Positions 22,993 through 34,271 of a DNA stretch of 64,000 nucleotides are shown here, in pieces. This DNA comes from Fimbriiglobus ruber (GTDB lineage: Bacteria > Planctomycetota > Planctomycetia > Gemmatales > Gemmataceae), in the NCBI RefSeq assembly GCF_002197845.1, contig NZ_NIDE01000003.1, forward strand, positions 372,001-436,000, in the 5' to 3' direction. The position numbers and the translations under genes are program-made. Below the pieces are notes generated by a model. The model saw only the letters and a program-made list of their open reading frames with translations. It ran no database searches and was not told the origin of the DNA. The stretch's first letter is position 1; each line of letters starts with the position of its first letter.

Positions 22993-24442
22993 CCCGGTCC
23001 TTCCATCCCCCCCACTACCGCCCGGCGACCCCGCCCCCGGGCGGGTTCTCATCGTCGACGACGACCTGGGCGTCCGCCGCTTCGTCCGACACGTCATGCT
23101 CGCGTGCGGTCACGCGGCCGACGCCGCCGCGAGTACCGACGAAGCACTCATCCTTCTGTCAAAGGGCGCGTACGACGTGGCCCTCGTCGACCTCGAAATG
23201 CCGGGGCGGAACGGCCTCGATTTGCTCGACGCGATGCGGGCGTCGGGGGCGGACGTGGTCTCGATCCTGTTGACCGGGACGACGAACATTGTGGCGGCCG
23301 TCGACGGGATGAAGCGCGGGGCGTTCGACTACCTGCCCAAGCCGGCCGAGCCCGAGGCCCTGCGGTGGACGGTCGCCCGGTCGATCGGGGTGGCCCGAGC
23401 CCGCCGGCGGGAGCGGGCCCTCGAGCGGGTCGTGGCCGACTGGGCGTCTACCTTCGACGCCTGCCCGGACCTGCTGCTCGTCATCGACGCGGACGATCAC
23501 GTCCTCCAGGCGAACCTGGCCGTCGCCAGGCGGACCGGAACCCCAGCCGGAGAAGCGGCCGGGCGTCGGGTCGGTGAGGTGTTACCCGGCGGACTCGGGG
23601 CCGCCGTGGCCGGGTGCGTGCGCCGCTTGCAGACCCGGGGGGACGCCACCCCGGTCAAATATTTTGACCCGGACACGGGCGGGCGGCTGATCATCAGCGT
23701 CAACCCGATTCGGGCCGCGGACGGCCCGTCCCCGGGCGTCGTCGTGGTCGTCCGCGACATGACCGAACTCGCCCTGGCCGAGGAAGTCCAGGCCCGCTTG
23801 TACCGCGAGCTGCTCACGGCCCAGGAAGACGAGCGGGGGCGGATCGCCCGCGAGTTGCACGACGGGATCGGTCAGGAAGTCGTCTCGCTCGCGCTCGGGC
23901 TCAGCGCGGCCGCCGAGGCCGCCCCGCCCGGGGAAGACCGGGACCGACTGGAAAAACTGCGGCAGGGCGCGGCCGAGACGCTGGAAGAGATCCGCCGGAT
24001 GGCTCAAGGGCTCCGCCCGATGGTGCTGGACGACCTCGGCCTGGTGGCCGCGCTCGAACGGCTGACCGACGGGTTCACCCGCCTCCACGGGGTGCGGGCC
24101 GAGGTCGTGGTGGCGGCCCCGCCGAGCGACCGGCTCCCGCGGGAGGTCGAATCGGCCGTCTACCGGATCGTTCAGGAGGCGATGGCGAACGTCGCGAAGC
24201 ACGCCCGGGCCCGGACCGCGGACGTGACGCTGGAAGTCGCCGACCGGTGCGTCCGCGTGTCCGTGACGGACGACGGGGACGGGTTCGCCATCCCCGACCG
24301 CCCGCGGTTGCACGCGGGCCTCGGGTTGTCGGACATGCGCGAGCGGGCCGTCATGCTGGGCGGAACCTTCCGGGTCGATTCGTCCCCCGGCCGGGGGACG
24401 ACGATCGACATCATGATCCCGCTCCGGGAGGACTCGCCGTGA
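22989..24442 (+). CDS. REC-PAS-HisKA_3 sensor kinase, probable frameshift near the start
   Basis: A NarX/DegS-type kinase. Receiver (VLIVDDDLGVRRFV, DVALVDLEMPG), then a PAS-like domain (~FDACPDLLLVIDADDHVLQAN), the HisKA_3 motif ELHDGIGQEVVSLALGLS, and HATPase with REVESAVYRIVQEAMANVAKHA and DDGDGF. The start of the receiver lies in the frame that first shows ATG only at 23096. The ATG at 22989, overlapping the previous stop (ATGA), is one base out of frame. One missing base, most simply in the run of seven C at 23007-23013, would restore a ~484-residue protein. Without correction a 448-residue protein with a beheaded receiver would start at 23096. It pairs with the NarL-type regulator next to it. 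Confidence 0.82.
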
Positions 24443-25107
24443 ATCGGACGCGCGTCGTGGTGGCCGACGACCACGCGGTCTTGCGGGAAGGCCTGCGGAT
24501 CTTGATTAATTCGCAACCGGACATGCTCGTGGTGGCGGAGGCCGGGACCGGCCCGGACGCGGTCGAGCGCATCCGCGAGACGAGCGCCCGGGTGCTGTGC
24601 CTCGACCTGTCCATGCCCGGTTGGGGGGCGACGACCACGATCGAGCGCGTCCACGCCGTCTCGCCGCGGACGCGGGTTCTGGTCCTGACCATGCACGACG
24701 ACCCGGCCTACGTGCGGACGGCGATCACGGCCGGGGCCAGCGGGTACATTCTCAAGACGACGCCCACCGCCACCCTGCTGAGCGCGATCCGGGGCGTCGC
24801 CGCGGGGAACCGCGTGATCGACGCCCCGCTGAGCGCGATCCTCGACGAAGCCCCCCCCGTGGCCCCGGGCGGGCAAGCCGTCCTGAGCCGGCGGGAGCGG
24901 GAGGTGCTGGAACTCCTGACCCGCGGGCACACCCACCAGGAGATCGCGGACCGGTTGTTCGTCAGCGTCAAAACGGTCGAAACGTACCGGGCCAGGGTCC
25001 GCGAAAAGACCGGCCTCAAAACCCGCGCCGACTTCGTCCGGTACGGGTTGGACGCCGGCATGCTGATGCCGCCGGACGGGGCTGCTCCGCCCGAGGTCGA
25101 AGGGTAA
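24439..25107 (+). CDS. NarL/FixJ-type response regulator
   Basis: A 222-residue DNA-binding response regulator. The receiver (VVVADDHAVLREGLRIL, phosphorylatable D in LCLDLSMPG, T in VLVLTMHDDP, K in GYILKTT) is followed by a LuxR-type HTH (SRREREVLELLTRGHTHQEIADRLFVSVKTVETYRARV). The start is GTG at 24439, overlapping the kinase stop as GTGA. This is the usual partner arrangement for HisKA_3 kinases, so the gene is the likely transcriptional output of the operon. Confidence 0.93.
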   Translation: MNRTRVVVADDHAVLREGLRILINSQPDMLVVAEAGTGPDAVERIRETSARVLCLDLSMPGWGATTTIERVHAVSPRTRVLVLTMHDDPAYVRTAITAGASGYILKTTPTATLLSAIRGVAAGNRVIDAPLSAILDEAPPVAPGGQAVLSRREREVLELLTRGHTHQEIADRLFVSVKTVETYRARVREKTGLKTRADFVRYGLDAGMLMPPDGAAPPEVEG

Positions 25108-25510
25108 ATAACCTATCACTTCCCGCCCGACGAAGTCCGCCACGTCAGTCTCGTCGTTCGCCACCACCCGCGGCAAAGTCCGCCAGCTCGTCCGCGGGTT
25201 GGATCGCCCAACGTCGGGCGCCATCAGCGGTGGAAAATCTGCCTTTCTGTCCGACCGAGCCTGCATGTGTATCCCAATTTTATTCCCGTGCAACAACTAT
25301 CTCTGCCCTTATTGACTATTTAAGCTTGACAGATCGTCTGCACTCAAATCGCGCACCTGTTCCACGGCAAATGAGGCGCCGGAGTTCTCACCGGCGCGGA
25401 AGAAATGAACAACGAGTGGTTGGAATAGGGCTTTCCCTGACAAGTTCGTCGACTTGAGGGACCTACGGTTCTGCAGATCAATCGGCAGAGACATTTGCAA
25501 GGATCATTAC
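25108..25510. other. Spacer upstream of the giant surface protein gene
   Basis: A 403-base stretch without a supported gene. The middle (about 25290-25340) is locally AT-rich, with a TTGACA at 25327-25332 that could be part of a promoter for the downstream gene. No confident -10 element was found. Confidence 0.35.
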
Positions 25511-28500
25511 ATGCCAGTCAAGCCGTCACTCGTCCGTCTGGAAGAACGGTCCACGCCCGCGGTCTTCGGCACGGCATCCGTGGTGCCACTCACCAGCCTG
25601 ATTACCACCCCCGTCACCGAGACGCTTTGCGACGTGAACGGGACGACCGGCCCGGCCCTCGTGATCGGCGGGGCGAGCGCGTCGAGCGGGGCACTCGTCG
25701 AAGTGTACCTCGGCAACGGCTCCGGCGGGTTCTCGTCGGCGCCGTCGGCCCGGATCGATCTCGACTCCGGCCTGATCGGGTCCCTGCTCGGCCTGGGTGC
25801 GAAAATCCAATCCGTCGCGACCGGGGACGTGAACGGGGATGGGAAAACGGACATCGTCGTCACCATCGGGGGCGGGTTGGGCGAACTGCTCGGCTCAAAG
25901 GTCGTCACCCTGCTCGGGAACGGCGACGGGACGTTCCAGCAGCCGTTCAGCCAAAATCTCCTGAGCCTCACCGGTCTACTTTCGACCGGCCCACTCAACA
26001 CCGTCGTCGGCGACCTGACCGGGACCGGCGGCCTCGGCATGCTGGTTCAGAACAGCTCCGGCAGCCTGACGGGTGTCCTCGGCGGGGCGACCGGACTCGT
26101 CGGTTCGATCCTGGGCAACCTCCTGCCGTCGGGGACGAGCGGGCTGAGCAGCGTCGCCCCGGTCATTACCGACCTGACGGGCAGCGGGAGTTCGATTCTC
26201 AGCCTGGCGACCAGCGGCGGTCAGACCGGCGTCTCGATCCTGAATGCCATCGGCAACGGGAATTTCCTGTCCGGCGGCTTCATCCCGCTCCCGGCCGGCA
26301 GCAATCCCGTCGGCCTGGCCGCCGTCGACCTGAACGGCGACGGAAAGAAGGACATCGTCGTCGCCGACGCGAACGGGACACTCGACGTAGCCCCCGGCGG
26401 TGGCAGTGGCTTTACATTCGGACCGCCGATCAACCTGAGCGGGTTGGTCGGCGGGTTGAGCGGGCTCGTGAACGCCAACGTAAACATTGGTGGGGTAGCC
26501 GACCTGGGGCTCGTTGACGCGAAAAACGGGCTGGTCTACCTGGCGACCGGCAAGGGCGACGGGTCCGGCGGAGTCTCGGTCAACGTCCAGACCCCGCTCA
26601 ACTTGGGCAGCACGCCGTTGAATCTGAGCCTGGGGAACCTGACGGGCAACGCACTGCCCGACCTGGTCGCCCAACTCGGCAACGGCGACATCATGGTGGC
26701 TCTGGACGCCGGAACGACGACCACCACCACCCTCGTGAGTTCGGCCAACCCCGCCCCAGCCGGGCACACCGTCACCCTGACGGCCACGACCACGGCGTCC
26801 GACGGCAGTATCCCCAGCGGGACCGTCACGTTCATGGACGGGGCCACAGTCCTCGGCACCGCCCCGCTCGACGGGACGGGTACCGCGATCCTCACGATCA
26901 GTTCCCTGGCCGCCGGCACCCATTCGATAACCGCCCAATTCGCGGCCTCCGCGGCGTTCGGAGCCAGCACTTCGCCCGCCGTGTCCGAGGTAATCGACGC
27001 GAGCAGCGCGGTTTCGACGTCGATCTCGCTAACGAGTTCGGCCGCTTCGGTCACGTTCGGCCAACTGACGACCCTGACGGCGACCGTCACCGCGACCGAC
27101 GGCAGTATCCCGAACGGGACCGTCACGTTCTACAACGGCACGACCCCACTCATCACCCTGCCGTTGGATCTCACCGGAAAGGCCGTCCTGACGACGGCCG
27201 CCCTACCCGTCGGGACGCTCGCTCTGTCAGCCCAGTTCAACGGGAACGCGGCCTACAGCCTCAGTTCGTCGACCATCTTGTCCCAGCTGATTGCGCCGGT
27301 GACGATCTCGACGACGGTCACTCTTTCGGGTTCGGCGAATCTCCTCTCTCTGGGTTCGTTACTCACGTTGACGGCCGACGTCACGGCGACCGACAACAGC
27401 CTCCCGAGCGGAACGATTTCCTTCTTCGACGGTACTAACCTGCTGACGACGTTGCCTGTCGGGCTGTTGGGTGACACCACGCTCGCTCTTTCCGTCCTGG
27501 GCCTCGGTTCACACACCCTGACCGCCCAGTTCAACGCGAACTCGCCGTATGTGTCGAGCGATTCCAACACAATCTCGGCGGATATTACACTCGCGACTTC
27601 GCCTCCGGTGACGCCACCCGTTACGCCCCCGGTGACGCCTCCTGTCACACCCCCGGTGACGCCTCCTGTCACACCCCCGGTGACGCCTCCTGTCACACCA
27701 CCGGTGACGCCGCCCGTCACGCCCCCGGTGACGCCGCCCGTCACGCCCCCGGTGACACCACCCGTTACACCCCCGGTGACGCCACCCGTTACACCGCCCG
27801 TGACGCCACCCGTTACACCGCCGGTAACTCCTCCTATTGTGCCTCCGGTGTCGCCACCCGTATCACCGCCCGTGTCTCCACCGGTGACACCGCCCGTGAC
27901 GCCTCCTGTTGTGCCTCCGGTTTCGCCACCCGTAACGGTCTCGCCTCCGGTCTCACCCCCTGTATCTCCGCCGGTCTCACCCCCTGTATCTCCGCCAGTC
28001 TCGCCCCCTGTATCTCCGCCAGTCTCGCCCCCGGTTTCACCCCCTGTATCTCCGCCGGTCTCACCCCCGGCGTCCCCACCCGCATCGCCTCCGGTGTCCC
28101 CGCCGATTACGGCGCCATCGACATCCGCGGCGGACAAATTGTCGAACATCCTCGTCCTATCCGGAACAGCCGACGGTTCGGCGCACACTTACCAATTCGG
28201 CGTGACGAGTTCGGGTGTGTCCGCGACACCGTTGAGTACGTTCACCCCGTTCCCGGGTTACACGGGCGCGGTGCGGTCGGTCGTCGGCGACTTCAACGGC
28301 GACGGGGTCGAAGACACCGCCTACGTCGTCGGGCCGGGTGGCGGGTCGCTCGTCCGCGTGATCGACGGCGCGACCGGGAAGGATCTGCTCACGGCCGGCA
28401 CAGTCTCGACCTACGAAGCCGGCTTCACGGGCGGCCTCTTCGCCGCGGCAGCAGACTTCTCCGGGACCGGGCGGGACGACCTGATCGTCAGCCCGGACGA

Positions 28501-29179
28501 CGGCGGCGGCGGCCGGATCCAGGTTTTCTCGATCGCAAACGGCATTCTGACCCAGGTCGCGAACTTCTTTGGCATCAACGACACGAACTTCCGCGGCGGC
28601 GCCCGGGTCGCGACAGGCGACATTAACGACGACGGCGTTCCGGACCTGGTCGTGACGGCCGGGACCGGCGGTGGCCCGCGGGTGGCCGTGTTCGACGGGA
28701 AGTCGATCGCGTCGGGTTCGTCTAACCCGAACCGGCTCGTGCCCGACTTCTTTGCCTTCAACGGCGCGGACACGGGCAACCTGCGAGACGGAGCTTACGT
28801 CGCCGTCGGCGACGTCAACGGCGACGGGTACGCGGACCTGGTGTTCGGGGCCGGTCCCGGCGGCGGCCCCCGGGTGTTCATTCTCGACGGCAAGACGCTT
28901 ATGACCGAAGGCTCGGCGGCAGCCGCGGCCGACCCGATCGCGAACTTCTTCACGTCGGGAGACGCCAGCGACCGGGGCGGGGTGCGGGTGGCGACCAAGG
29001 AGGCGACCGGGGGCACGGCGGCCGACCTCGTCGTCGGAAGCGGGGAAGGGATGCCGAGCCAGGTCTGGGTCTACTCCCACACCACGTTGACCAGTGCGAT
29101 CGCGGGCGTGCCACCGGTCAGTTACGGCTTCGATCCGTTCGGCAGCCAGTCCCTCGCCGACGGGATCTACGTCGGGTAA
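25511..29179 (+). CDS. Giant FG-GAP/Ig-like surface protein with a proline-rich repeat stalk
   Basis: A 1222-residue protein. The N-terminus MPVKPSLVRLEERSTPA has the LE(E/D)RxxPA-type motif seen at the start of many Gemmataceae surface proteins, in place of a normal signal peptide. Residues ~60-400 contain FG-GAP/VCBS-type repeats (GDVNGDGKTDIVV, DLNGDGKKDIVVAD). Residues ~410-695 hold three Ig-like repeats (GHTVTLTATTTASDGSIPSGTVTF and two more). Residues ~698-870 are an almost pure PPVT/PPVS tetrapeptide repeat. Residues ~880-1222 hold further FG-GAP repeats (GDFNGDGVEDTAYVV, GDVNGDGYADLVFGAGPGGGPRV). FG-GAP repeats usually form beta-propellers; the stalk probably separates two globular ends. 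AAGGA precedes the ATG at 25511. The ligand is unknown. Confidence 0.85.
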   Translation: MPVKPSLVRLEERSTPAVFGTASVVPLTSLITTPVTETLCDVNGTTGPALVIGGASASSGALVEVYLGNGSGGFSSAPSARIDLDSGLIGSLLGLGAKIQSVATGDVNGDGKTDIVVTIGGGLGELLGSKVVTLLGNGDGTFQQPFSQNLLSLTGLLSTGPLNTVVGDLTGTGGLGMLVQNSSGSLTGVLGGATGLVGSILGNLLPSGTSGLSSVAPVITDLTGSGSSILSLATSGGQTGVSILNAIGNGNFLSGGFIPLPAGSNPVGLAAVDLNGDGKKDIVVADANGTLDVAPGGGSGFTFGPPINLSGLVGGLSGLVNANVNIGGVADLGLVDAKNGLVYLATGKGDGSGGVSVNVQTPLNLGSTPLNLSLGNLTGNALPDLVAQLGNGDIMVALDAGTTTTTTLVSSANPAPAGHTVTLTATTTASDGSIPSGTVTFMDGATVLGTAPLDGTGTAILTISSLAAGTHSITAQFAASAAFGASTSPAVSEVIDASSAVSTSISLTSSAASVTFGQLTTLTATVTATDGSIPNGTVTFYNGTTPLITLPLDLTGKAVLTTAALPVGTLALSAQFNGNAAYSLSSSTILSQLIAPVTISTTVTLSGSANLLSLGSLLTLTADVTATDNSLPSGTISFFDGTNLLTTLPVGLLGDTTLALSVLGLGSHTLTAQFNANSPYVSSDSNTISADITLATSPPVTPPVTPPVTPPVTPPVTPPVTPPVTPPVTPPVTPPVTPPVTPPVTPPVTPPVTPPVTPPVTPPVTPPVTPPVTPPIVPPVSPPVSPPVSPPVTPPVTPPVVPPVSPPVTVSPPVSPPVSPPVSPPVSPPVSPPVSPPVSPPVSPPVSPPVSPPASPPASPPVSPPITAPSTSAADKLSNILVLSGTADGSAHTYQFGVTSSGVSATPLSTFTPFPGYTGAVRSVVGDFNGDGVEDTAYVVGPGGGSLVRVIDGATGKDLLTAGTVSTYEAGFTGGLFAAAADFSGTGRDDLIVSPDDGGGGRIQVFSIANGILTQVANFFGINDTNFRGGARVATGDINDDGVPDLVVTAGTGGGPRVAVFDGKSIASGSSNPNRLVPDFFAFNGADTGNLRDGAYVAVGDVNGDGYADLVFGAGPGGGPRVFILDGKTLMTEGSAAAAADPIANFFTSGDASDRGGVRVATKEATGGTAADLVVGSGEGMPSQVWVYSHTTLTSAIAGVPPVSYGFDPFGSQSLADGIYVG
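27600..28110 (+). repeat. Tandem coding repeat (PPVT to PPVS stalk)
   Basis: About 510 bases of 12-base units encoding Pro-Pro-Val-Thr, switching at about 27850 to Pro-Pro-Val-Ser with a few variants (PPIV, PPVV, PPAS). Larger 24-base units are nearly identical at DNA level (cctgtcacacccccggtgacg type), indicating recent expansion by slippage or unequal crossing-over. The complementary strand reads Gly-Gly-Val-Thr and is not coding. Confidence 0.85.
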
Positions 29180-29226: not shown

Positions 29227-29989
29227 GGCTGTAGTTGATTTCGTTCCCGAACCCCTGACATCTCGTTGCCTTCGCGACCGACTCTTTGGAACGGACACGA
29301 CGTTGGTCTCTCGAACGAATCGGCCCTCTGACTTAAGACTAACCTCTGTGCAATGGGAACCGCATTCGACCACGGTCGGTTTCCTGTGAAAAGCAGACCA
29401 GGACGCCTGTCGGAGAGGGTTTTTGCGCTTTTTGCGCCTTCCAGGGCGTTGTCTGATATTGCACGAACAAACACATAAATTCATGGCAGAGATCATGTCT
29501 ATCTTCTAATGTTCCGCGAAAGAGCATGAACGAAGACATAAGTGCAGAAGAGGGGTTTTGCGGTGGCGCCGAACCCCGGCAGCGGTTCGTAGGATCTCAG
29601 AACAAACGACCGAGATGCTTCGGAGCCGTGAAACAGCGATGGCTTCGTTCCTGGCCGTGTAAAGCATACTCTGGCGTAGGCCATAATCACTTCGGAGTCG
29701 TGACCGCAGGCGAGCTGGTGATTTGGTAACTTTTACAAATTGGTCTTGATGTGGCCTGCGGCTTTGGGTAAACAATGGTGGCCCAGAGTGTGGGCACGGA
29801 CGCCACAGCGAATGTTATACCCTCCAACCGGGCGGTATCAGTTCGGGCGTCTCAAACCACTTCTCTTCAACACCCCGTTTATTTCACTTGAGACCGCACC
29901 GAGATGTGCGGTGGCGTTATGCTACCGTTTCATCCGCGCCGGGTTGGCCCGACGCCGCCGTTTCAACCGCGCCGGGAGGGAATCCGCGC
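29227..29989. other. Gene-free region upstream of the CsrA fusion
   Basis: About 760 bases, more AT-rich than the neighbours, with no recognisable gene on either strand. It presumably holds the promoter for the CsrA fusion gene. No RNA gene is recognised, though a small RNA cannot be excluded. Confidence 0.4.
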
Positions 29990-30769
29990 ATGCTCGTCGT
30001 GTCACGTAAACCGAATGAAAAACTGGTTTTTCCAGGGATCGACACCGTCGTCCGGGTGGTGTCCGTGAAATCCAACGTCGTGCGGCTCGGCATCGATGCC
30101 CCGCCCGATGTCGCCGTCTACCGGGAAGAACTCCTGACCCGGATCGCGGCGTCAGAGTCGGCGGCGAATGAGCCGCACGAACCGCCCGCGGGCAGTCGCG
30201 AATTCCGGCACCGCTTGCGGAATCGCTTGAACGCGGCCGCCATTGGCCTCGCCCTTCTGGAACGCCAGCAGCGGGCCGGCATGACCGAGGCCGCCGAGGC
30301 GACGCTCGCCCGGGTCAACGAGGAGTTCTCGACCCTTCAGGGCTACGTCGAGCGCATGGCCGACCCGCCTGCACCGGTCCGCAAGACGGCCAAGGTTCGC
30401 CGGGCCTTGCTCGTGGAAGACGACCGGAATGAACGTGAGTTGTTGGCCGGCTTTCTCCGCGTGGCGGGGATCGACGTGGCCTCCGTTGGCGACGGGTCCG
30501 AGGCGCTCGACTATTTGCACACCCACGACCGGCCGGACGCGGTTCTCCTCGACATGGGCCTCCCGCGCTGCGACGGACCGACGACGGTCCGCGCCCTGCG
30601 CCACAGTCCGGCCCACGCCGGGCTCAAGATTTTTGCCGTCAGTGGCTACCCGCCCGAACACTTCGGCCTCGACCACGGCCCGACCGGGATCGACCGCTGG
30701 TTTCAGAAGCCGCTCGACCCCGAGCGACTCCTGGTCGAACTGGACCGCGAATTGAACATTCACGCCTGA
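29990..30769 (+). CDS. CsrA domain fused to a DHp-like helix and a receiver domain
   Basis: A 259-residue protein. Residues 1-~55 are a CsrA RNA-binding domain: MLVVSRKPNEKLVF, VVRVVSVKSNVVRLGIDAP and VYREELL, including the conserved Arg of the VHREEI-type motif needed for RNA contact. Residues ~75-130 are helical with FRHRLRNRLNAAAIGLALLERQ, which resembles a histidine-kinase dimerisation helix (H-x-LRN-x-LNA). Residues ~140-259 are a receiver (ALLVEDDRNERELL, D in AVLLDMGLP, S in FAVSGYP, K in WFQKPL). GGGAGGG precedes the ATG. Free-standing CsrA is ~60-75 residues; fusion to a receiver is unusual. It suggests post-transcriptional control gated by phosphorylation, which is inference. Confidence 0.85.
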   Translation: MLVVSRKPNEKLVFPGIDTVVRVVSVKSNVVRLGIDAPPDVAVYREELLTRIAASESAANEPHEPPAGSREFRHRLRNRLNAAAIGLALLERQQRAGMTEAAEATLARVNEEFSTLQGYVERMADPPAPVRKTAKVRRALLVEDDRNERELLAGFLRVAGIDVASVGDGSEALDYLHTHDRPDAVLLDMGLPRCDGPTTVRALRHSPAHAGLKIFAVSGYPPEHFGLDHGPTGIDRWFQKPLDPERLLVELDRELNIHA

Positions 30770-30918: not shown

Positions 30919-31803
30919 TCACATCAGTTCCACCTTTGTCAAAATCGCCTTCAGCTTTTCGCGCTTGTCCGCGGGCAACGCGGAAATCGGCCCCCGATTC
31001 GGCCCGGCCGGCCGGCCGAGCAACGCCATCGCTTCTTTCACGGCCCCGTTGCCCGTGGCCAGCGTCAACGCGAGGCGAACCGGCGCGAGCAGATCCTGGT
31101 ATCGCCGGGCGGCGGGCAGATCGCCCTTCGTAAACGACTCGTAAATGCCCACGCAGAATTCCGGGGCGATGTTACACGTCGCGGGGATGGCCCCGCTCGC
31201 CCCGAACATGAGCGCGGCGAGGAGCAGGGTGTCGCGGCCGTTGAGGACGGCGAACTTGTCGCGCGGCGTGACTTTGATCAGTTCGATGGTGTTCTGCAGG
31301 TCGCCGGACGAGTCTTTGATGCCGACGATGTGGGGCGTTTCCGCGAGCCGCGCGACCGTGTCGGGCTCGATGCTAACGCCGCCGCAGGTGGCGGGATTGT
31401 TGTAGAGGACGACCGGCTTCGAGGTGCTGTCCGCGACGCGGCGGAAGTGATCGATCAATTCGGCCTGCGACGGCTTGATGAAGTACGGCGTGATGACGGA
31501 CACGCCGTCCGCCCCTTCCTTCTCGGCCATTTTCGTAAGTCGCACGACTTCCCGCGTCGTCTCGGCTCCCGTCCCCGCGTAAACCCGGCTGCGGCCATTG
31601 ACGTGCGTCACCGCACACGCGACGACCGCCTGCTTCTCGTCTTCGGAGAGCGCGTAGAACTCGCCGGTGGTGCCGAGGACAAAGATGCCATGGACGCCCT
31701 TGCCGAGCAAGAAATCGATGTGGGCGCGCAAGCCGTCCAGGTCGAGCGACTCGTCGGCACGCAGAGGGGTGACAACGGGGGGGATGATACCCTTTAACAA
31801 CAT
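30919..31803 (-). CDS. Dihydrodipicolinate synthase family aldolase
   Basis: A 294-residue class I aldolase of the DapA/NanA family. Visible: GIIPPVVTPL start, GTTGEFYALS (substrate-binding T-T), VVLYNNPATCGG (catalytic Tyr) and IVGIKDSSGD (Schiff-base Lys). The family includes 4-hydroxy-tetrahydrodipicolinate synthase, N-acetylneuraminate lyase and sugar-acid aldolases; I cannot tell which. A nearby sialidase gene makes a sialic-acid-related role possible, not shown. The start at 31803 follows GAGGA. An IF-1-like gene lies 10 bases upstream, and two partial copies of this gene's 5' end lie further upstream. Confidence 0.87.
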   Translation of the reverse strand: MLLKGIIPPVVTPLRADESLDLDGLRAHIDFLLGKGVHGIFVLGTTGEFYALSEDEKQAVVACAVTHVNGRSRVYAGTGAETTREVVRLTKMAEKEGADGVSVITPYFIKPSQAELIDHFRRVADSTSKPVVLYNNPATCGGVSIEPDTVARLAETPHIVGIKDSSGDLQNTIELIKVTPRDKFAVLNGRDTLLLAALMFGASGAIPATCNIAPEFCVGIYESFTKGDLPAARRYQDLLAPVRLALTLATGNGAVKEAMALLGRPAGPNRGPISALPADKREKLKAILTKVELM

Positions 31804-31813
31804 GGCAGGTTCC

Positions 31814-32047
31814 TCAACAGTTTGAGTTGTTTGCTGGCGGTCGAAGACCAATGATCCGGCCGATGCCGGGGTCGAACGGACTTATTTCGACCGTAACCTC
31901 ATCGCCGGGAAGTAGCCTCGGGATGTTCCTTTTATGAACGACCCTGCGGGCAAGACTCACTCGAAGCCTTTGCCCGCTTTTTAGCTCCACGGTAAAGTGA
32001 GTGCAGGGTAAACACTCTTGAATGACGGCATACAGTTCCTCATCCAT
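31814..32047 (-). CDS. Translation initiation factor IF-1-like protein
   Basis: A 77-residue protein that aligns along its length with IF-1: VIQECLPCTHFTVELKSGQ corresponds to the VxExLPNxxFxVELxNG region, and NIPRLLPGDEVTVEISPFDPGIGRI to the xIRILPGDxVTVExSPYDxxxGRI region. It is an OB-fold (S1-like) RNA binder. It is more divergent than a housekeeping IF-1 (no HISGKMRK, instead VSLARRVVHKR) and has a short C-terminal tail, so it is likely a second, specialised copy. It is sandwiched between a broken dapA 5' copy and intact dapA, 10 bases from the latter. AGGGA precedes the ATG. Confidence 0.75.
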   Translation of the reverse strand: MDEELYAVIQECLPCTHFTVELKSGQRLRVSLARRVVHKRNIPRLLPGDEVTVEISPFDPGIGRIIGLRPPANNSNC

Positions 32048-32242: not shown

Positions 32243-32581
32243 CTAGTCATCTTCGATGACATTCCCCTCCGGGTCGTATGTCAACGAGTTCTCATACAAG
32301 ATGTCGCAGACGTATGGCTCAGGCGGACGAGTCTGCCACTCGTCGCTACGAACTTCCCACATCGCTACGAGTCCGAGCAATTCGACCGCCGTGGTTGCAC
32401 TAAAATGGCAACCGTCTTTCTCAGCATCGAAGTTCTGGTGGTACTCGCCGGATGCTGATTTGCTAAACCACAGCGTCAGGTTATACCCCTTCGCGCGAAG
32501 GACCAGTAAGCTGGGGTTTTCAGTATTCCCGGCGATCCGAATATTGACACCGCGTTCAGGTTCTTTCATGTGGGTACTCAT
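32243..32581 (-). CDS. Small acidic protein of unknown function
   Basis: About 112 residues (start MSTHMKEPERG at 32581; a second Met at 32569 is possible). I do not recognise the family. It has a mixed alpha/beta look: an N-terminal basic part, LLVLRAKGYNLTLWFSK, FSATTAVELLGLVAMWEVRSDEW, and an acidic tail (YDPEGNVIEDD). No membrane segment or signal peptide. Its start overlaps (ATGA) the stop of a partial dapA copy. The size, acidity and cassette-like setting are like immunity proteins of polymorphic toxins, but no toxin is nearby and this is only a suggestion. Confidence 0.6.
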   Translation of the reverse strand: MSTHMKEPERGVNIRIAGNTENPSLLVLRAKGYNLTLWFSKSASGEYHQNFDAEKDGCHFSATTAVELLGLVAMWEVRSDEWQTRPPEPYVCDILYENSLTYDPEGNVIEDD

Positions 32582-32688
32582 TCTCTGGGGGGTGCACACA
32601 GCCAAAATTCCGTGGGCACCTTGCCGAGCAAGAAATCGATGTGGGCGCGAAGGCCATCCAGATCGAGTGACTCGTCGGCACGCGCCTG
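32578..32688 (-). pseudogene. Internal fragment of the dapA-family 5' region (copy C)
   Basis: The frame reads ADESLDLDGLRAHIDFLLGK, the same segment as residues ~16-35 of the intact aldolase, then diverges into VPTEFWLCAPPRE and stops at 32578-32580, overlapping the start of the next small gene by ATGA. The matching ~63-base core (32621-32683) differs from the intact gene (31700-31762) at five positions. The first ~14 codons of the gene are absent here. It is a decayed or recombinant copy. Confidence 0.75.
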
Positions 32689-32789
32689 TTCCTCAAAGGT
32701 CTCTTCTGCATCCGCGTCTACCGAACTCGAAGCGATTCTTATAATTCCCCCGTCCTCTCCGGTCGCGCTCCGCCAGCCAAGGATCACGC

Positions 32790-34271
32790 ATGCCGCGTTA
32801 CGTCGCCGCGCTTCTTGCACTCGCTCTATTTCCATTCGCCGCAATAGCCGCGCCGGGGATAAGGTTCGAGGTCCGGCTCGCACCGGGCAACGTCCCGAAC
32901 CCGCTCGCGTCCGGCCGGATGCTGGTCGCGATTGCCCCGGCGGACGGGCAACCGGGTTTCACCGAGACCGATCCGCCGCTCTTACCCCTGCTCGGGGCCG
33001 ACGCGACCAACATGACGGCCGACACCGTCGTCGGCCTCGACGCCAAATCCGCGACTTTTCCCCACGTCTCACTCGATGACCTGCCGATAGGCGAGTATGC
33101 GGTCCAGGCCATCTTCGCGTTCAACCGGGACATCAACCTGCCAGGCGCGCCCGGCAACCGGTATTGCGTGCCGGTCAAGGTGAAGCTCGACGCGAAAGCC
33201 GGCACCGTTGTTCGCCTCACCCTCGACAAAATGTACGACGGCAAGCCGCCCGACGACACGAAAACCCACAAGTATCTGTCGGTGCCCTCGAAGCTCCTGT
33301 CCGCCTTCCACGGCCGGCCGATGGTCTACCGGGCGGCCGTCGTGCTTCCGCCAGACTTCGAGACCGCCCCAGCGAAGAAGTACGCCCTGCTCGTCCGCAT
33401 CGGCGGCTTCGGTACGCGCTACACCTCGGCCGCGTCGATCGAGCCGGACGCCCGGTTCGTGCAAGTGTTGCTCGACGGAGCCGGCCCCTACGGCGACCCC
33501 TACCAGGTCAATTCCGCGAACAACGGCCCCTACGGGGACGCTCTGACGCGCGAGGTGCTGCCGCTCATCGAGGCCCAGTACCGCTGCCTAGGTACGCCGA
33601 AGTCGCGGTTCACGTCCGGGGCCAGCACGGGTGGGTGGGTCTCATTCGCCCTGCAAGTCTTTTACCCGGACTACTTCAACGGCTGCTGGTCGCAGTGTCC
33701 GGACGGCGTGGACTTCCGCGCGTTCGAGTTAATCAACATCTACAAGGACGACAACGCCTACGTGAACCGATTCGGCGCCGAGCGGCCGAGCAAGCGGACG
33801 CACGAAGGGGAAACGGTGTTCACCCTCCGCCACGAGTGCCAGATCGAAAACGTCCTGGGCCGCGGCGGGCGGTGGGAACTCTCGGGCCGCGACTGGTGCT
33901 GCTGGAACGCGACCTACGGACCCCGCGGCCCGGACGGGTTGCCGGTCCCGCTGTGGGACGGCAAGACGGGCAAGATCAATAAGGCGATCCCGCCGTTCTG
34001 GGAGAAATACGACCTGCGGCTGGTGCTGGAGCAGAACTGGAAAACGCTCGGCCCGAAGGTGGCGAGCGGCAAGATCCACGTCTGGGTCGGCGAATCGGAC
34101 GACTACTTCCTGAACAACGCCGTTCACCTTCTCAAGGAGTCGATGGAGAAGCAGAAGGAGCCGCCGTTCGACGGCCAAATCCTGATCGAGTTGCGAAAGG
34201 GCCACGAGTCCGGCGGCTGGACCGACAAGCAGATGCGCGACGACATGGCAGTGCGGGCTGGCGTCAAGTAA
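32790..34271 (+). CDS. Secreted putative esterase
   Basis: A 493-residue protein with a signal peptide (MPRYVAALLALALFPFAAIAAPG). The N-terminal ~165 residues are beta-rich. The rest looks like an esterase D/feruloyl-esterase type alpha/beta hydrolase: YALLVRIGGFG, GPYGDPYQVNSANNGPYGDAL, then FTSGASTGGWVSFALQVFYPDYF with a G-x-S-x-G nucleophile elbow, and late IHVWVGESDDY and LRKGHESGGWT that could give the acid and histidine. The substrate is unknown; carbohydrate-ester cleavage is plausible given neighbouring glycan-related genes. It runs divergently from the dapA cassette region. Confidence 0.75.
   Translation: MPRYVAALLALALFPFAAIAAPGIRFEVRLAPGNVPNPLASGRMLVAIAPADGQPGFTETDPPLLPLLGADATNMTADTVVGLDAKSATFPHVSLDDLPIGEYAVQAIFAFNRDINLPGAPGNRYCVPVKVKLDAKAGTVVRLTLDKMYDGKPPDDTKTHKYLSVPSKLLSAFHGRPMVYRAAVVLPPDFETAPAKKYALLVRIGGFGTRYTSAASIEPDARFVQVLLDGAGPYGDPYQVNSANNGPYGDALTREVLPLIEAQYRCLGTPKSRFTSGASTGGWVSFALQVFYPDYFNGCWSQCPDGVDFRAFELINIYKDDNAYVNRFGAERPSKRTHEGETVFTLRHECQIENVLGRGGRWELSGRDWCCWNATYGPRGPDGLPVPLWDGKTGKINKAIPPFWEKYDLRLVLEQNWKTLGPKVASGKIHVWVGESDDYFLNNAVHLLKESMEKQKEPPFDGQILIELRKGHESGGWTDKQMRDDMAVRAGVK

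Follow-up and report, generated by a model that had tools for sequence, protein, structure and literature searches.

A gene on the forward strand of a 64,000-nucleotide stretch of the Fimbriiglobus ruber genome (contig NZ_NIDE01000003.1, positions 372,001 to 436,000; the whole of this stretch is called the window below) encodes a protein in which an N-terminal CsrA domain, a two-helix hairpin related to the HisKA domain of histidine kinases and a C-terminal receiver domain are fused. We propose that it is a response regulator with CsrA as its RNA-binding output, which carries its own phosphotransfer hairpin, would be fed by a hybrid histidine kinase and may tune its own translation, a reading to which we assign a probability of about one half. 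The proposal starts from computed features, namely the domains, the conservation of their residues, the kinship of the hairpin with HisKA, the linkage to kinases, the predominance of hybrids among these and a hairpin in the leader of the gene. The gene and its parts are as follows:

29990..30769, forward strand: csrA-hairpin-receiver gene (ATG at 29990, stop codon ending at 30769, 259 residues; 129 aligned members)
29990..30148, forward strand: CsrA domain, residues 1-53 (PF02599; R6 and R45 kept)
30188..30361, forward strand: HisKA-derived helical hairpin, residues 67-124, with helices at 67-95 and 99-124 (from Pfam, model and profile comparison)
30209..30211, forward strand: His74, putative phospho-accepting histidine (118/129 members)
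30221..30223, forward strand: Asn78 (H+4), the phosphatase position in HisKA (115/129 members)
30398..30763, forward strand: receiver domain, residues 137-258 (from Pfam, model and structure match)
30551..30553, forward strand: Asp188, expected receiver phosphorylation site (128/129 members)

Domain architecture of the window protein

Pfam recovers the CsrA domain at residues 1-53 (E 1e-15, 57.8 bits against a cut-off of 27 bits) and Response_reg (PF00072) at residues 140-250 (E 1.9e-16), and both the MLVVSRK and VYREEL motifs are present, which bears out the original prediction, made from the sequence alone, of a full CsrA domain joined to a full receiver. In the single-sequence scan the middle region has no Pfam match at E ≤ 1, and HATPase_c is absent from the protein at the same threshold, i.e., there is no catalytic ATP-binding (CA) domain. 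The protein reaches 52 and 48.7 bits with the NCBIfam equivalogs for csrA, short of their respective cut-offs of 73 and 70.1 bits, and on these scores it is a CsrA-domain protein distinct from the standard csrA. Solved CsrA chains align with the domain (E 2.3e-9) such that R45 pairs with their Arg44; Arg6 and Arg44 of Escherichia coli CsrA are its RNA-contact arginines. The receiver has D188, S218 and K240 all in place. An AlphaFold2 model built with 79 family sequences (mean pLDDT confidence 89) comprises the CsrA strands with their C-terminal helix, the two-helix hairpin and the receiver, the relative positions of these domains being uncertain at a pTM score of 0.57. When residues 1-128 were folded alone, the first 14 Foldseek rows were all solved CsrA, RsmA or RsmE structures, RNA complexes among them (best E 1e-4), and the best VIA-align match of the full model was the receiver chain 3gl9_B (Z 20.2, root-mean-square deviation 1.6 over 120 residues). 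The program-made open reading frame (ORF) begins at TTG 29888, an unlikely start given that both M1 and the leader preceding 29990 can be aligned throughout the family. A chance fusion or an assembly artefact is excluded by full-length relatives in many genomes.

Phyletic spread

The original prediction had proposed that the same architecture be sought across planctomycetes, and profile searches find members (E ≤ 1e-45) in at least 65 of 248 sampled Planctomycetia genomes, the source genome included; 9 or 10 candidates were scored per genome, which makes these genome counts lower bounds. In a sample of the phylum, 11 of 294 genomes match, namely the source genome and 10 of 20 others of the class Planctomycetia, as against none of the 273 sampled genomes of other classes, with few candidates scored in each and the class of these 273 taken from the order of the listing. 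Within the family of the source genome, 32 of 95 genomes (its own included) match residues 1-140 at E ≤ 1e-8, some of them via an ordinary CsrA only, and 23 full-length sequences from this set were aligned. A scan of GTDB contigs yielded 148 relatives; the titles of the best 80 of these are planctomycete, save one given just as 'bacterium', and include Blastopirellula marina, Rhodopirellula baltica, Stieleria, Bythopirellula, Rubripirellula, Thalassoglobus and Gimesia. The 12.36 Mb source genome itself has seven CsrA-domain places, of which the other six lie in open frames of 70-136 codons.

Before alignment, two loci were removed, one frameshifted (L147) and one at a contig edge (L159), as were 12 of 59 later loci as duplicates; near-duplicates were retained. 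L147 (G006:C39) is a family gene with a stop after 64 codons and the remainder matched further on, i.e., a pseudogene or a sequencing error. Receiver-less relatives with the CsrA domain and hairpin, of 128-151 residues, occur at L069:8093-8512, L071:7981-8433, L075:7686-8138 and L080:7253-7636; by eye, only the first of these keeps the histidine of the hairpin.

The hairpin and its kinship with HisKA

Among 50 family hairpins scanned with Pfam, HisKA is matched by 16 at E ≤ 1, the best at 1.9e-4, and SPOB_a weakly by two (best E 0.016); the hairpin of the window protein itself has no match. HisKA is the most often matched of 49 Pfam families hit by some hairpin; these also include TPR_19, in 8 of 50, and a phage tail family at E 7.3e-4, so single weak matches mean little here, and it is the profile comparison that carries the claim of kinship. 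In that comparison, the family hairpin aligned to the HisKA domains of 41 nearby kinases gave a probability of 97.2% (P 4.4e-11) with the histidines and the H-box in register, as against a maximum of 8.8% (lowest P 0.0038) for 100 column-shuffled HisKA alignments and 1.1% for the reversed alignment. A coiled-coil alignment gave 0.2%; it held 10 similar sequences and is a poor control, hence the shuffled and reversed ones. By its profile, then, the hairpin is a relative or derivative of HisKA without the kinase domain. The original prediction had described the segment FRHRLRNRLNA as a helix mimicking the dimerisation and histidine phosphotransfer (DHp) segment of histidine kinases; the motif is there and the likeness to DHp stands, but the profiles indicate kinship where mimicry had been suggested.

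The 28 matches of the hairpin profile to solved structures contain no DHp protein, the best being a designed protein (E 0.00059), and VIA-align of residues 1-128 returned generic helical hairpins with no DHp family in the 50 matches listed, which is no test against DHp kinship. Large kinases of the source genome that match residues 83-254 had seemed to share a hairpin-receiver module with the family; this was rejected as a chance match because the part before their receiver is the end of a CA domain (with motifs such as GLGIGLAL).

Residue conservation

Across the alignment of distinct members, the arginines of the CsrA domain are almost invariant (R6 in 128/129, R45 in 127/129), and the loss of RNA-binding residues in all homologues, which the original prediction had named as fatal to its idea, did not occur. 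The domain has a signature of its own: where the first strand region usually has I-G, it reads F-P (P15 in 126/129). The receiver is comparably constrained at Asp188 (128/129), Ser/Thr218 (127/129) and Lys240 (126/129). In the hairpin, His74 is found in 118/129, Asn78 in 115/129 and Leu80 in 125/129 members, as compared with an acidic residue adjoining His74 in just 52/129. In the HisKA kinases tested in PMC3510030, kinase activity depended on the acid beside the histidine and phosphatase activity on the Asn/Thr at H+4. The hairpin has thus not been constrained at the kinase-specific residue, with the phospho-acceptor and the phosphatase position both kept. Two copies in one metagenome-assembled genome (UBA4732; L101 and L107) both lack His74 and both have the receiver aspartate; L101 also lacks R6 and R45 of the CsrA domain.

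Association with hybrid histidine kinases

Of 81 loci, 46 have a histidine kinase as immediate neighbour, defined as the first flanking gene of at least 120 codons, and so do 30 of 47 further loci; the counts are rough, since the ORFs come from a longest-ORF script and some look spurious (e.g., near L160). In the first set kinases fill 46 of the 153 first positions, compared with 11 of the 461 that lie at positions 2-6 (Fisher p 1e-20), and in the second 33 of 92 against 15 of 238 further out (p 1.5e-10), both values being uncorrected for kinship. The kinase gene may lie upstream or downstream and on either strand, so that the link, found in each of the four relative orientations, has outlasted rearrangement. 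Hybrid kinases, i.e., those ending in a receiver, account for 73 of the 79 adjacent kinases as opposed to 10 of 26 farther off, and the commonest type of neighbour has CheB and CheR parts (52 of 79). Its architecture, confirmed by Pfam on the L098 kinase alone, is CheB-CheR-coiled coil-PAS-PAS-HisKA-CA-REC over 1340 residues. In a table covering 126 of 128 loci, 70 of the 71 members beside a hybrid kinase have His74, as do 1 of the 4 beside a non-hybrid kinase and 44 of the 51 that lack a kinase neighbour; over the 75 loci with a neighbouring kinase, the association of His74 with a hybrid has a Fisher p of 0.00023, uncorrected for kinship. The non-hybrid case with His74 (L099) has as its second upstream gene one of 145 codons whose product is grouped by BLAST with receiver and kinase proteins. 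An unlinked CheB-CheR hybrid kinase is encoded in the source genome at G000:C4:276767-280423.

In the window, a receiver-PAS-HisKA_3 kinase (23096-25107) followed by a LuxR-type response regulator lies about 5 kb upstream of the family gene, with no sign of partnership. At L090:9024-12998 the family gene is followed by a 157-codon gene with no Pfam match, KaiB (PF07689, E 7.9e-27), a double-domain KaiC (PF06745, E 8e-117) and a PAS hybrid kinase; by reading, L089 has KaiC and kinase genes, and L091 has KaiB and KaiC with no kinase in the available stretch.

A putative operator in the leader

Many family leaders carry the pattern GG-N-A-N-GGA-N-N-CC directly before the start codon. In the window this corresponds to:

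29973..29986, forward strand: putative self-operator CGGG-AGGGAA-UCCG with an ANGGA hexaloop, overlapping the ribosome-binding site (from the pattern match at G000:C3:401974-401992 and the family consensus)

The leader set was reduced from 138 to 102 by clustering at 80% identity, after removal of leaders near a contig start, and 94 of the 102 have GGA at -18 to -7. Compared with 99 neighbouring genes picked for a GGA resembling a Shine-Dalgarno sequence, whose script-chosen starts may not be the true ones, these 94 are enriched in an A two bases before GGA (87/94 against 30/99), in the stem GG (56/94 against 7/99) and CC (56/94 against 10/99), in both inner pairs being formed (62/94 against 11/99) and in the full GG..ANGGA..CC (45/94 against 0/99). 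Over all 102 leaders, the strongest excess of pairing relative to permuted partners falls on the diagonal that leaves the hexaloop ANGGAN, with z values of 2.5 for the closing pair (formed in 40%), 4.9 for the next (81%) and 3.2 for the one after (78%). Permuting whole 3' arms reproduced the mean stem score in 4 of 2000 trials and the number of stems of at least 3 bp in 34 of 2000; for stems of at least 4 bp the excess was not significant, 231 of 2000 permutations reaching the observed count.

The combination of ANGGA with both inner pairs occurs in 2 of 14 leaders of standalone or receiver-less csrA-type genes, and the operator is not shared by the adjoining kinase genes, none of 26 having all three features. 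Three Rhodopirellula-type paralogues (L153, L156, L168) have no GGA operator at the start codon and keep His74 and Asp188. A search of the whole source genome with the operator pattern turned up 50 sites, compared with 20 when the pattern was reversed, one string making up 9 of the 50; in the 30 sites read, possible starts besides that of the gene itself occur only at L245 (lpxB-like by eye), L256 (transposase-like) and L252 (short), and no regulon is claimed from this search. Rfam found nothing around the gene beyond one chance match (E 0.8).

A hairpin with an ANGGA loop over the ribosome-binding site is the textbook target of CsrA and RsmE, and the title of structure 2jpp describes RsmE bound to the Shine-Dalgarno sequence of hcnA. 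The leader hairpin is the strongest indication that RNA at this gene would be read by the fused domain or by another CsrA of the cell, and its overlap with the ribosome-binding site suggests repression.

Proposed mechanism and alternative explanations

In the proposed mechanism, a hybrid histidine kinase, most often of the CheB-CheR-PAS-HisKA-CA-REC type, would autophosphorylate and pass the phosphate to its own receiver. His74 of the hairpin would receive it from there, in the manner of Spo0B and ChpT, and hand it to Asp188, and the phosphorylated receiver would make the RNA-binding edges of the CsrA dimer more or less accessible. The protein would also tune, and probably repress, its own translation via the ANGGA hairpin. 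The direction of phosphotransfer, its effect on RNA binding, the sign of the regulation and the fused domain, rather than a standalone CsrA, as the reader of the leader are what we infer. As a rule, a hybrid kinase reaches a response regulator only by way of a separate histidine carrier. That phosphorylation of the receiver might be linked to RNA binding by CsrA, as the original prediction had it, fits the near-invariant residues and the presence of the leader hairpin in most clusters. More tentatively, and at less than even odds, the family could constitute a complete His-Asp-His-Asp phosphorelay with translation, not transcription, as its end point, running from a CheB-CheR hybrid through the hairpin to a receiver that switches CsrA on mRNAs, its own first; one genus may thereby read a Kai-type timer through its cluster of KaiB, KaiC and hybrid kinase.

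A number of observations weigh against the proposed relay and self-operator. His74 is lost in 11/129 members, 10 of which keep Asp188, so the receiver can be needed without the histidine, and it is kept in 44 of 51 members that lack a neighbouring kinase. No kinase is the immediate neighbour in 52 of 128 loci, the window included, though some contigs are short. The correlation of His74 with hybrids hangs on four non-hybrid cases, two of which (L213 and L215) look alike, and neither the counts nor the tests take account of phylogeny. As for the leader, 8 of 102 lack GGA in the expected place, the stem is short, with the closing pair formed in only 40% and no covariation at a fourth pair (z -0.8), and the starts of the control genes are those of a script. 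Moreover, z is as high as 4.0 in shifted registers and 3.5 for a column pair beside GGA that fits no stem, which implies that part of the leader signal is kinship.

In the main rival, the hairpin acts on the attached receiver as a phosphatase and dimerisation module: a kinase would phosphorylate Asp188 directly and Asn78 would help to remove the phosphate. The Asn at H+4 in 115/129 members, set beside the kinase acid in just 52/129, speaks in its favour, as does the statement in PMC3510030 that the histidine enhanced the phosphatase activity of HisKA proteins without being strictly required. Yet His74 is conserved as strongly as Asn78. Further, the loss of the histidine accompanies non-hybrid neighbours in 3 of 4 cases, and the adjacent kinases are mostly hybrids (73/79), a type for which a separate carrier of the phosphate is the rule. 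We regard a phosphatase hairpin as the less likely reading, with the proviso that relay and phosphatase roles could both be true.

Two other explanations concern the output. The CsrA domain and the receiver might be tethered yet independent, so that an mRNA regulator is brought to a signalling complex with its RNA binding ungated by phosphorylation. The linker between the CsrA domain and the hairpin does vary in length and is predicted at low confidence (block pLDDT of about 60), such that rigid coupling is not evident; however, the near-invariance of the receiver active site over the 129 members and the kinase linkage suggest that the output is affected by the phosphorylation state, and we consider mere tethering improbable. 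Still less probable, to the point of being a long shot, is a CsrA fold that no longer binds RNA and serves only for dimerisation or protein binding. Such a loss would suit a divergent domain that falls under the equivalog cut-offs and bears the F-P signature, as well as the member that has lost R6, R45 and His74 together (L101), and a standalone CsrA could be the reader of the leader. Against this, R6 and R45 are kept in 128/129 and 127/129 members, and the CsrA-type hairpin is found on the family leaders and not on the controls, both inner pairs being formed on just 2 of 14 standalone csrA-type leaders.

Other features in the window

A frame on the minus strand at 32578-32883 contains the stretch RADESLDLDGLRAHIDFLLGK, with which the dapA-like gene at 30919-31848 also begins; this is a partial duplication. 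At 25454-29179 a 1241-residue protein is encoded with a long PPVTPPVTPPV / PPVSPPVS repeat tract.

Comparison with known systems

The family shares with CsrA, RsmA and RsmE the fold, the RNA-contact arginines and an ANGGA hairpin over the ribosome-binding site, as in the pairing of RsmE with hcnA. Unlike these free-standing proteins, the domain here is fused to signalling modules and carries the F-P signature. CsrA is controlled by small RNAs (sRNAs), FliW or CesT, and the fold-search matches include CsrA structures with a flagellar assembly factor and with CesT. Two-component systems usually reach CsrA by transcribing sponge sRNAs, and protein antagonists also control it. If the proposed reading is true, the sensor and the mRNA-binding protein would stand one phosphotransfer apart with the transcription step removed. 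This would be a natural design for phosphorylation-controlled translation, in which sensor signals may control translation directly. It would offer a defined RNA operator for assays, and the general question of whether CsrA can be switched allosterically could be addressed with a single small protein and a short RNA.

The DHp-type phosphotransferases Spo0B and ChpT likewise have a DHp-like hairpin without a working kinase domain and move phosphate between receivers. They differ in being separate proteins with a degenerate CA-like domain, in contrast to the bare hairpin placed here inside the final response regulator, which would be an example of a HisKA domain reduced to a hairpin within a regulator. 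The CheB-CheR-PAS hybrid kinases are to be seen as the partner of the family and not as its relative.

A further precedent is the set of response regulators with a receiver joined to an RNA-binding output, for which a 2007 paper names ANTAR and CsrA, citing the 2006 census of Galperin (PMC2222644). These differ from the present family in its HisKA-derived hairpin, linked hybrid kinase and self-operator. A table in a 2025 review gives E. coli CsrA as an orphan response regulator whose C-terminal domain binds RNA (PMC12471899), which appears to be an error. A partial literature search, with subscription journals mostly outside it, found no study of CsrA-receiver proteins and no paper on their hairpin, kinase partner or operator. 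Thus, as far as these sources go, CsrA as the output of a response regulator is already a known curiosity, whereas the family's hairpin, linkage to kinases, operator and distribution across the class seem to be new.
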